Below, in pieces: positions 3,833-7,142 of a DNA stretch of 64,000 bases. The DNA is taken from NCBI GenBank assembly GCA_018819105.1, contig JAHJQV010000018.1, positions 111,787 to 175,786 on the forward strand. The letters run 5' to 3'. The DNA is from Gammaproteobacteria bacterium. Lineage in GTDB: Bacteria; Pseudomonadota; Gammaproteobacteria; Xanthomonadales; Wenzhouxiangellaceae. The translations under genes were made by a program, and so were the position numbers. Positions within the stretch are counted from its first letter, which is position 1, and each line of letters opens with the position of its first letter. Below the pieces are notes generated by a model. It did no database searches. It was not told where the DNA came from and saw nothing but the letters and a program-made list of their open reading frames with translations.

Positions 3833-3909
3833 TGGTGGGCCCTGTAGGACTTGAACCTACGACCAATCGATTATGAGTCGACTGCTCTAACCAACTGAGC
3901 TAAGGGCCC
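3833..3909 (-). tRNA. tRNA-Ile2 (anticodon CAT, lysidine-modified)
   Basis: On the minus strand the acceptor arm GGGCCCT pairs with AGGGCCC, followed by discriminator A and an encoded CCA (plus-strand TGG at 3833-3835). The D-arm TTAGCTCAGTTGG and T-arm GGTTCAAGTCC are standard. The anticodon is CAT. The body, especially CTTAGCTCAG and GACTCATAATCG, resembles the enterobacterial ileX type rather than the elongator methionine type. It would therefore read AUA after TilS converts the wobble C to lysidine. A separate CAT tRNA at 6158-6234 looks like the elongator Met species. Confidence 0.85.
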
Positions 3910-4775: not shown

Positions 4776-5666
4776 TTAATCCGTCGCATTGGCCTGCCGA
4801 CGTTCCCGGCGCTCACGTTCTTCCTCGCGGGCCGCATCGATGATGCCCATCAGGTGAACGAGATTGATGTCTTGATGCACCGGATCGTACTGTCCGGTCA
4901 TACTTGAATCGGGCTGCAGGCGACCTGCAGCGTAGCGCGCCCAGATCTCCTTGCCGTAGTCGGTTTCGAGCAGCTCAGGCACGATGCGGCCAAAATGGTG
5001 ACGCAGACGATCGACATCGCGCACCAGCAGCATTGCCGCTGAGTTGTTCGCTGATGCATTGACCGCCTGGGGCAAATCAATGATCACCGGACCCTGCTCG
5101 TCCACCAGGATGTTGAATTCTGAAAGATCGCCATGAATCAGTCCAGCGGCCAGCATACGCACCACCTCGCGGATGAGCTGAGCGTGGAAACACTGCGCCA
5201 TTGCCACGTCCAACACCACATCTCCCAGTCGCGGTGCGATGTGTCCATCGGCATCGGTGATCAATTCCATCAACAGAACGCCATCGACGAACGCTATCGG
5301 TTGGGGCACGCGCACGCCGGCAGCGGATAAGTTATACAGCGCGTCAACTTCGGCACTGACCCAGAGTTTTTCCTGCTCCTTCTGACCATAGCTGGTACGG
5401 CGTGACATGGCCCTGGCACGCCGGGTGTTGCGAACCTTGCGTCCTTCCTGATACAGCACATCCTGCTTGAAGCTGCGATTTTGAGACGCCTTGAACACTT
5501 TGGCACAGCGTCGCTCTCCACCAGCACGTACGACAAACACATCGGCCTCTTTGCCACTCTTGATCTCGCCAAGCACCTCGTCGATCAGGCCGTCTTCGAG
5601 CAATGATTGCAGTCGCAATGGCGTTTTCATCAGGACAGGCTTGGCAGATGCATCAGGATCGTCCAT
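4776..5666 (-). CDS. RIO-type serine/threonine protein kinase
   Basis: An atypical protein kinase of 296 residues. The RIO nucleotide loop S-G-K-E-A-D-V-F is at about 37-44, with the ATP-binding lysine in C-A-K-V-F-K at about 56. The catalytic loop H-G-D-L-S-E-F-N-I-L is at 178-187 (Asp180), and the metal-binding aspartate sits in I-I-D-L-P-Q (Asp197). Archaeal and eukaryotic RIO kinases act in ribosome maturation. The role of the bacterial members is not settled. The gene starts 53 bp beyond the end of the repeat array that trails tRNA-Met on the same strand, so the tRNA, repeats and kinase could share a transcript. The basic, low-complexity C-terminus is of unknown function. Confidence 0.88.
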   Translation of the reverse strand: MDDPDASAKPVLMKTPLRLQSLLEDGLIDEVLGEIKSGKEADVFVVRAGGERRCAKVFKASQNRSFKQDVLYQEGRKVRNTRRARAMSRRTSYGQKEQEKLWVSAEVDALYNLSAAGVRVPQPIAFVDGVLLMELITDADGHIAPRLGDVVLDVAMAQCFHAQLIREVVRMLAAGLIHGDLSEFNILVDEQGPVIIDLPQAVNASANNSAAMLLVRDVDRLRHHFGRIVPELLETDYGKEIWARYAAGRLQPDSSMTGQYDPVHQDINLVHLMGIIDAAREEERERRERRQANATD

Positions 5667-5719
5667 TGTAGGCGGAAGCCGGGGCCAATGTTTGTGTCAG
5701 CGCAGAGTTCTGTTGATGA

Positions 5720-6179
5720 CAGCGCACCAGGACGTGCGCTGACAGCCACGACCGCAGGGCGGTGGTTCTCAAAATAAATCGCGGAATTCAGCAGCGATCA
5801 AGATTGCCAGGCGAAGGAATGGTGGTGATGGGTGGACTTGACCGGTTCGTCGGGAACGAATCGGGTCGCACACAGTGCGCCCGCAGGGCAGCGCACCAGG
5901 ACGTGCGCTGACAGCCACGACCGCAGGGCGGTGGTTCTCAAAATAAATCGCGGAATTCAGCAGCGATCAAGATTGTTAGGTGAAGGAATGGTGGTGATGG
6001 GTGGATTTGACCGGTTCGTCGGGAACGAACCGGGTCGCACACAGTGCGCCCGCAGGGCAGCGCACCAGGACGTGCGATGACAGCCCCGACCGCAGGGCGG
6101 TGGTTCTCAAAATAAATCGCGGAATTCAGCAGCGATCAAGATTGTTAGGTGAAGGAATGGTGGTGATGGGTGGATTTGA
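5720..6179 (-). repeat. Tandem 169-bp repeats trailing tRNA-Met, each with the tRNA 3' tail
   Basis: Read on the minus strand, the array starts inside tRNA-Met. Units are 6179-6011, 6010-5842 and a partial 5841-5720. Each begins with the last 22 nt of the tRNA including CCA (6158-6179, 5989-6010 and 5820-5841, the last with one mismatch). Each junction has a hairpin CCGGTTCGT/ACGAACCGG (6011-6033; one G-T wobble at 5842-5864) and a second small stem GCGCAC/GTGCGC. Units are nearly identical. The layout matches the rtT repeats after tyrT in E. coli, known from the literature. The sequence itself is different as far as I can tell. No rRNA or protein family explains it. Confidence 0.85.
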
Positions 6180-6234
6180 ACCACCGACCTCAGCATTATG
6201 AGTGCCGCGCTCTAACCAACTGAGCTACATCACC
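6158..6234 (-). tRNA. tRNA-Met (elongator, anticodon CAT)
   Basis: On the minus strand the acceptor arm GGTGATG pairs with CATCACC, followed by discriminator A and an encoded CCA. The D-arm is TAGCTCAGTTGG, the anticodon loop CTCATAA and the T-arm GGTTCAAATCC. The first acceptor pair is a normal G-C, so it is not an initiator tRNA, and the body lacks the Ile2 signature of the gene at 3833-3909. Its 3' tail is repeated downstream in the 169-bp array. Confidence 0.88.
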
Positions 6235-6344
6235 GCTACCGGCGTGGCGCAGGAACATGCGCCGGACAAGACTGCGTATTTTGGCAACATTGCGCCCGCT
6301 TTGCAATACCGTGCGGCAGATGTGCCGCCGCATGGCCGCACCGT

Positions 6345-7142
6345 TCAGCTGCGCAGACCGACGCCTTTCTGCAGCAGGTACAGGCAGATTCCTCCCAGCA
6401 GCAGCACAAACACCACAATGATGGCAAAAGCCGGCAGCACTGGCACATCCGACACGCCCAGCATGCCGTAGCGGAAGGCGTTGACCATGTACAGGATCGG
6501 ATTGATGCTGGAAACCGTCTCCCAGAACGGCGGCAGCAGCGACACCGAATAGAACACGCCGCCCAGATAGGTCAGGGGGGTGAGGATGAAGGTGGGCACA
6601 ATGGTGATGTCGTCAAACTTCTGCGCATAAATGGCGTTGATCAGTCCGGCCAGCGAGAACACCATCGAGGTCAGCAGCACCACACTGATGGTGATCGCCC
6701 AGTTGTGCACCTGCAGATGGGTGAAGAACAGCGCCACCAGGGTCACCACGGCACCCACCAGCAGGCCGCGGAACATGGAGCCGGTGACATAGCCGGCCAG
6801 AATGACCCAGTTCGGCAGCGGCGAGATCAGCAGCTCCTCGATGTGGCGGCCAAATTTGGCTCCGAAAAACGACGACACGATGTTGCCATAGCTGTTCTGA
6901 ATCACCGACATCATGATCAGGCCCGGCACAATGAACTGCATGTAGTCGAAGCCGCCCATGTCGCCGATGCGCTTGCCGATGAGGCTGCCGAAAATGATGA
7001 AATACAGTGAGATGGTGATCGCCGGGGGCAACAGCGTTTGCGCCCAGATGCGCAGAATACGGTTGATCTCACGGCGGATGATGGTGCGATAGCCAACCAG
7101 ATTGACCTGGGCCATGCTCATTTCGCTGCTGCTGTGGTTCAT
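6345..7142 (-). CDS. yadH: ABC-2 type transporter permease (YadH-like)
   Basis: A 265-residue inner-membrane permease with about six hydrophobic helices and the ABC-2 family layout: a cytoplasmic N-terminal lead (R-R-E-I-N-R-I-L-R-I-W) followed by the pore. It is translationally coupled to the ATPase gene upstream on the same strand, because the ATPase stop and this ATG overlap by 4 bp (7139-7142). The length is close to E. coli YadH. Together the pair should form a half-size ABC exporter. The substrate of YadGH is not established, and homologs act on polysaccharides, lipids or drugs. Confidence 0.85.
   Translation of the reverse strand: MNHSSSEMSMAQVNLVGYRTIIRREINRILRIWAQTLLPPAITISLYFIIFGSLIGKRIGDMGGFDYMQFIVPGLIMMSVIQNSYGNIVSSFFGAKFGRHIEELLISPLPNWVILAGYVTGSMFRGLLVGAVVTLVALFFTHLQVHNWAITISVVLLTSMVFSLAGLINAIYAQKFDDITIVPTFILTPLTYLGGVFYSVSLLPPFWETVSSINPILYMVNAFRYGMLGVSDVPVLPAFAIIVVFVLLLGGICLYLLQKGVGLRS

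Follow-up and report, generated by a model that had tools for sequence, protein, structure and literature searches.

A tRNA-linked repeat array with an apparently inverted core downstream of a gammaproteobacterial tRNA-Met gene

tRNA-linked repeats (TLRs) have been known since 1978. Escherichia coli K-12 carries 22 of them at ten loci, including the rtT repeats behind tyrT and rrA, rrB and rrF behind 5S genes, and in all of them the final 18–19 bp repeat exactly the 3′ end of the tRNA or rRNA that precedes them (Stenum 2021, PMC8144298). The same work lists TLRs as having no known function, an earlier role of rtT in starvation recovery or the stringent response having been retracted, and proposes that the tail copy serves as an RNase E signal or guide (PMC8144298). 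The RNAs of the rRNA operons, RrA, RrB and RrF, are made by read-through of the first terminator and subsequent processing; they bind Hfq, and they bind CsrA through GGA loops, for rrB in vitro (PMC8144298). Two RtT-family RNAs adjoining tRNA genes are visible on Northern blots in Actinobacillus (PMC4986893), and rtT-like BIME attenuators occur in enterobacteria (PMC2965389).

The DNA analysed here is a window of 64,000 nucleotides from a gammaproteobacterial genome (G000). On its minus strand, an elongator-type tRNA-Met(CAU) gene (6158–6234; ARAGORN; Rfam RF00005, 75.9 bits) heads a tandem array that Tandem Repeats Finder placed at 5720–6179 with a period of 169, 97% matches, a score of 871 and 2.7 copies, a number that may be collapsed in this draft genome; the next-best, and only other, tandem repeat in the window scores 52. 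The original 3′ tail of the tRNA, TCAAATCCACCCATCACCACCA (22 nt; 6158–6179, minus), recurs at +169 and +338 on the tRNA strand. Unit 1 (5989–6157, minus; 169 bp, from the Tandem Repeats Finder period) begins at 6157, the base right after the tRNA CCA, and closes with a tail copy identical at 22/22 positions (5989–6010, minus). Unit 2 (5820–5988, minus; 169 bp) is also complete and closes with a copy identical at 21/22 (A to G; 5820–5841, minus), and unit 3 (5720–5819, minus; delimited, like unit 2, by Tandem Repeats Finder and extraction) is truncated, holding only the leader and hairpin 2 and no further tail. The 147 bp between the tails are non-coding. A sequence-only reading of the locus had described a tRNA-Met followed by 2.7 minus-strand units of 169 bp, on which ARAGORN, Rfam and Tandem Repeats Finder agree, and a strong hairpin at the unit junction, which is present at 6011–6033 and 5842–5864; the exact 22-nt tail that it gave to each unit is found in the first copy and misses one base in the second. 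As it had also pointed out, any transcript of the array would by sequence carry three CCA tails, the original and two copies.

By our estimate, each tRNA would have about 0.0025 random matches to its 19-mer tail within 2 kb, allowing up to four mismatches. Because of this low expectation, and because an array stands at the equivalent tRNA in a congener (G001), chance recurrence of the tail is excluded. The array lies directly behind a tRNA, its tails match at 22/22 and 21/22 positions where TLRs show identity over 18–19 bp, its two complete units and one truncated unit follow at 169 bp within the one to five units at about 130–200 bp spacing typical of TLRs, and it contains a core homologous, though inverted, to that of other TLRs. 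On these sequence features it is a TLR locus and thus belongs to an already known class of element; the suggestion that it might represent an unrecognised class does not survive, since E. coli TLRs with the same hallmark of tail identity over 18–19 bp had already been described. A likeness to E. coli tyrT-rtT had been claimed as well, and this is correct in kind, both being TLRs. The RtT model (RF00391), which matches a tRNA-Tyr unit of genome G004 with 60.7 bits, gave no match to the window or G001 units even at E<=5, and an Rfam scan of the whole window returned tRNAs alone.

Tail arrays were sought at other tRNAs by scanning tRNA loci of G000, G004 and other fetched loci for further copies of the last 19–20 nt of the tRNA concerned, order and class coverage being a sample under strict filters. 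Such a search of related genomes had been put forward as a check, and it recovered arrays at many tRNAs in several genomes: G000 has them at Met, Phe and Pro tRNAs, G004 at those for Gln, Arg, Tyr, initiator-Met and Ser, G049 at Gln, G092 at Gln and Met, and G464 at Met. Order-wide, tRNAs for Gln, Met, Arg and Ser carried arrays, and in E. coli the same scan found them at tRNA-Tyr, -Arg and -Pro. The case in which every relative lacks an array at tRNA-Met, which the sequence-only reading had named as refuting it, is contradicted by G001, G092 and G464. Searched across the order, the Rfam RtT model matched 39/300 genomes, and 26 of 30 fetched loci contain a tRNA-Tyr or tRNA-Ser with a further copy of its own tail at 144–203 nt; the model favours Ser and Tyr tRNAs because it includes the tail. 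The tRNA-Glu locus of G004 has a core but no recognisable copy of the Glu tail. One locus at a tRNA-Arg (L060) was rejected as a TLR, the tail scan having picked up a whole-gene duplication. The results of that scan at tRNAs also led us to give up the notion of the unit as a dispersed element found in this genus alone. Many contig ends of G004 (C3, C5, C6, C10, C11, C14 and C19) fall inside TLR arrays, and array copy numbers are probably underestimated in short-read assemblies.

The core common to these loci was described by a covariance model (R2) built from eight cores, taken from five G004 loci and one G049 locus, and therefore free of window, G001 and E. coli sequences. With E-values that are to be read as rough, R2 matches E. 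coli rrB (39.8 bits, E=3.7e-7), the G001 core (E=6.3e-6) and both complete units of the window, at 5997–6082 (+) in unit 1 (48.0 bits, E=2.5e-8) and at 5828–5913 (+) in unit 2 (42.2 bits, E=4.1e-7), which shows that the window core is homologous to a core shared by many TLRs, that of E. coli rrB included. The shared core is an RNA structure with two strongly covarying stem-loops. Across 50 distinct cores, 95% of cells are paired, a percentage inflated by fitting the alignment to the model, and the covariation score is 0.50, compared with 0.147 ± 0.009 in shuffled and at most 0.059 in slid controls; the double changes do not arise from fitting alone. The stems vary and nearly all loops keep GGA, typically as CA(N)GGA(N)G with C-G closure, which agrees with the established recognition element of CsrA/RsmA (PMC8144298). 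Among 46 tail-repeat units, the tRNA strand carries 41 GGA-loop hairpins (shuffles, 21 ± 4) and the opposite strand 16 (shuffles, 25 ± 5). A GU-versus-AC count, with one near-constant G-U column excluded, gave 17 versus 14, too even to tell which strand is transcribed. GGA-loop hairpins are missing from many TLRs of Ser and Tyr tRNAs, E. coli rtT among them, and CsrA binding can therefore not be claimed for every TLR. Complementarity of GAACCACCG to the tRNA T-arm was considered as antisense pairing and set aside, as this sequence adjoins a general TLR box, GATGAGAACC, found at tRNAs with other T-arms. The genome of the window encodes csrA (PF02599 at G000:C30:141-284). In a separate observation, csrA lies just upstream of a tRNA-Ser(GCU) gene, behind which stands a TLR core bearing CsrA-type loops, both in G000:C30 (L200) and in G004:C10 (L179); the csrA–tRNA-Ser neighbourhood is ancient, so that this may be a coincidence, but a feedback is conceivable.

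The orientation of the core sets the window array apart. Full scoring with R2 gave 48.0 and 42.2 bits on the + strand and at most 2.3 bits on the minus strand, which is the strand of the tRNA. Hairpin 1 of the core, CCGGTTCGT-CGGGA-ACGAACCGG in unit 1 (6011–6033, +), has its loop GGA on the + strand only and recurs in the fold of unit 2 (5842–5864, +). Hairpin 2 reads GCGCAC-CAGGAC-GTGCGA in unit 1 (6060–6077, +; sequence comparison) and GCGCAC-CAGGAC-GTGCGC in unit 2 (5891–5908, +; sequence comparison and fold), and it is also present by sequence in truncated unit 3 (5722–5739, +). Among 51 core matches tallied, 34 follow a tRNA at no more than 500 nt on the same strand and four do so on the opposite strand; these four all come from this genus, namely the window Met units, the G001 Met array and the G000 Phe array. 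Outside the inverted arrays, all 34 tRNA-adjacent cores tested are on the tRNA strand, among distant relatives also at the tRNA-Met of G464, and for nearly all loci the first core lies 47–86 nt from the tRNA end. By this comparison of sequences, the window core is turned around relative to ordinary TLRs. The GGA loops thus do not lie on the tRNA-transcribed strand, as a CsrA-type TLR would have them, but on the + strand, with the tRNA on the minus strand. The tRNA-Phe array of the same genome (L189, 217–740), whose units measure 208 and 214 bp, likewise has an inverted core and antisense GGA loops. In the window, the fold is stronger on the + strand (z −2.85) than on the minus strand (z −1.79). 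Between G000 and G001 the + strand GGA is kept while the surrounding loop bases differ, which involves few changes and is not significant; given this retention, the + strand could be in use.

One genome of the same genus, G001, was compared. It has an array at the equivalent tRNA-Met, in which the tail recurs at +175 and is followed by a truncated second unit; the last unit is thus truncated in both genomes. Relative to the window, the leader has diverged and the core is 87% identical. Hairpin 2 reads GCGTAC-AGGGAT-GTACGC in G001, a compensatory change with respect to GCGCAC/GTGCGC in the window. These results suggest that the TLR array has been inherited within this genus.

The surroundings of the array are not shared. 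In the window, the genes neighbouring the array are on the minus strand, and a RIO kinase gene (4776–5666; RIO1 by Pfam, E=1.4e-38) starts 53 bp beyond the array end. The sequence-only reading had emphasised this adjacency, which is real in the window and absent elsewhere: a cytochrome b561 gene follows the array in G001, and 0/80 RIO-kinase loci from other genera had a tail array on their flanks, so that a linkage between the array and the kinase gene was abandoned. A frame of 29 codons starting with GTG, also noted earlier, does exist, but the aligned frame in G001 starts with GTA and runs past the stop; with neither the GTG start nor the stop retained there, it was dismissed as coding. A second tRNA with a CAT anticodon lies 2.3 kb off at 3833–3909 (minus) and has no tail repeats; it is probably a tRNA-Ile2 whose anticodon carries lysidine, or else a further tRNA-Met.

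From the architecture, class, core homology, inversion and congener conservation described above, we consider it likely that the window holds a genuine TLR array at an elongator tRNA-Met in which the core has been flipped, the tail copies are predicted 3′-processing signals and the link to CsrA has been lost. The mechanism, drawn by analogy from RrB and rtT, would begin with the tRNA-Met transcript reading through into the array. The stretch from tRNA-Met to the RIO kinase gene showed no terminator-like site, and because an intrinsic terminator was not found in the array, read-through is probable; in many other TLRs the tRNA is directly followed by an intrinsic terminator. A simple, insensitive scan of 5300–6700 found no promoter-like site on either strand and missed the necessary promoter of the tRNA itself. 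The tail copies with their CCA would then be cut like tRNA 3′ ends, giving trailer pieces of about 169 nt; a part for the tails in processing, already raised in the sequence-only reading, agrees with the proposal of Stenum 2021 (PMC8144298), and the annotated 3′ end of E. coli RttR coincides with the CCA of a tail copy. In ordinary TLRs, the two GGA stem-loops of the core are predicted to bind CsrA/RsmA, thereby coupling CsrA availability to tRNA and rRNA synthesis. In the window, where the inversion places the loops on the other strand, RNA from the tRNA strand should not be a CsrA ligand, and the CsrA function may have been either lost or moved to a putative + strand RNA. Recombination between the tails would maintain and homogenise the array, which is probably a derived and partly relaxed TLR.

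The second of these outcomes corresponds to an antisense CsrA sponge, a + strand RNA that would combine four to five GGA stem-loops, two from each complete unit, with antisense copies of the tRNA-Met tail. Such an RNA fits the + strand position of the GGA loops, which both species and the Phe array show, the strong + strand fold and the csrA gene in the genome, but the insensitive scan of 5300–6700 offered no promoter-like site for it, the neighbouring genes are on the minus strand and every other tRNA-adjacent core tested uses the tRNA strand; we regard it as quite improbable. It is doubtful, too, that the array is a neutral tandem duplication, in which unequal exchange between tails multiplied a functionless trailer whose copies gene conversion homogenises. 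Such a history would produce copies that are 97% alike within the genome beside leaders that differ between genomes, and it would accommodate the truncated last unit in both species, the inverted cores and the absence of the closing helix; it does not account for the compensatory hairpin change between species or for homology of the core to conserved, strongly covarying TLR cores.

Two further explanations place the repeats at the level of DNA. tRNA 3′ ends are classic attB sites, and repeats 22 nt long would suit tail copies left by small elements integrating there. The window tails, however, do not bound a recombinase or phage-related element, the 147 bp between them are non-coding and structurally conserved, the arrays stop inside a unit instead of at a tail, homologous cores occur at tRNAs with differing tails, and no phage record gave a match; an origin as att remnants is extremely improbable. 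The core might instead be a mobile, REP/BIME-like DNA repeat that came to lie next to tRNA genes, its orientation being immaterial. TLR-type cores do occur dispersed away from tRNAs, in G000:C18 (L265–L267) and in G199 (L270–L273), where they sit inside REP-like GTAGGAGC...GCTCCTAC sequence, and the enterobacterial BIME attenuators resemble rtT (PMC2965389); from these dispersed copies, the core may have a role at the DNA level. Yet the orientation bias of 34 to 0, the constant distance of 47–86 nt to the first core, the conserved loop on covarying stems and the enrichment of sense-strand GGA loops (41 versus 21 ± 4) argue for selection at the RNA level, and an orientation-blind mobile repeat appears improbable to us.

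Beyond the genuine but inverted array that we favour for this locus, we put forward tentatively that gammaproteobacterial TLRs form a general system in which transcription of tRNA and rRNA releases predicted CsrA/RsmA decoys, the tail acts as a processing signal and the core is a module attachable to almost any tRNA, with the flip at Met and Phe here disconnecting CsrA or shifting the decoy to the antisense strand. The comparison links E. coli rrB to a covarying GGA core at many tRNAs order-wide, nearly always on the tRNA strand, and makes the CsrA hypothesis for TLRs directly testable over many loci. The window array is a natural control for the role of TLRs, with equal tails and spacing and with loops on the wrong strand. 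A different arrangement was observed upstream of tRNA-Ser(UGA) in G000:C37 (L264) and G001:C147 (L268), where the initial 36 nt of the tRNA are copied without change, three times at a 192-bp period in G000 and once in G001. Each copy has a sense GGA core inserted at anticodon-loop position 36/37, where the tRNA copy breaks off, and in G000 a TACAAT box precedes two of the three copies and the real gene. By sequence, these repeats resemble a 5′-half counterpart of TLRs.

Set against the known systems, the window array shares with the E. coli TLRs, in the part of Rudd 1999 relayed by PMC8144298, a position directly behind the tRNA, tail identity over 18–22 bp and one to five units of about 130–180 bp, and it differs in its elongator Met tRNA, its lineage, its inverted core and a terminator not found after the tRNA. 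With rtT/RttR behind E. coli tyrT-tyrV (RF00391) it has in common a similar period (178 versus 169), tail copies ending in CCA and a unit rich in hairpins. It differs from rtT/RttR in the missing RF00391 match, the absence of a conserved ORF and the absence of the closing helix between anti-tail and tail: against 200 shuffled tails the window and G001 units rank 154, 93 and 130, whereas the helix is significant (rank 10 or better of 200) in 26 of the 46 tail-repeat units. To RrA, RrB and RrF the window is related through a core homologous by R2 (rrB 39.8 bits, window 48.0 bits) with two GGA stem-loops, but rrB has its loops on the transcript, flanked by two terminators, and the window loops are on the opposite strand. 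TLRs also resemble the CsrA-sequestering RNAs of the CsrB/RsmX type in their repeated, C-G closed A(N)GGA stem-loops, and a TLR of G004 gives a sub-threshold match to the rsmX model (36.3 bits, E=0.0036). Unlike those RNAs, TLRs are not free-standing but tied to tRNA transcription, and in the window the loops lie off the tRNA strand.
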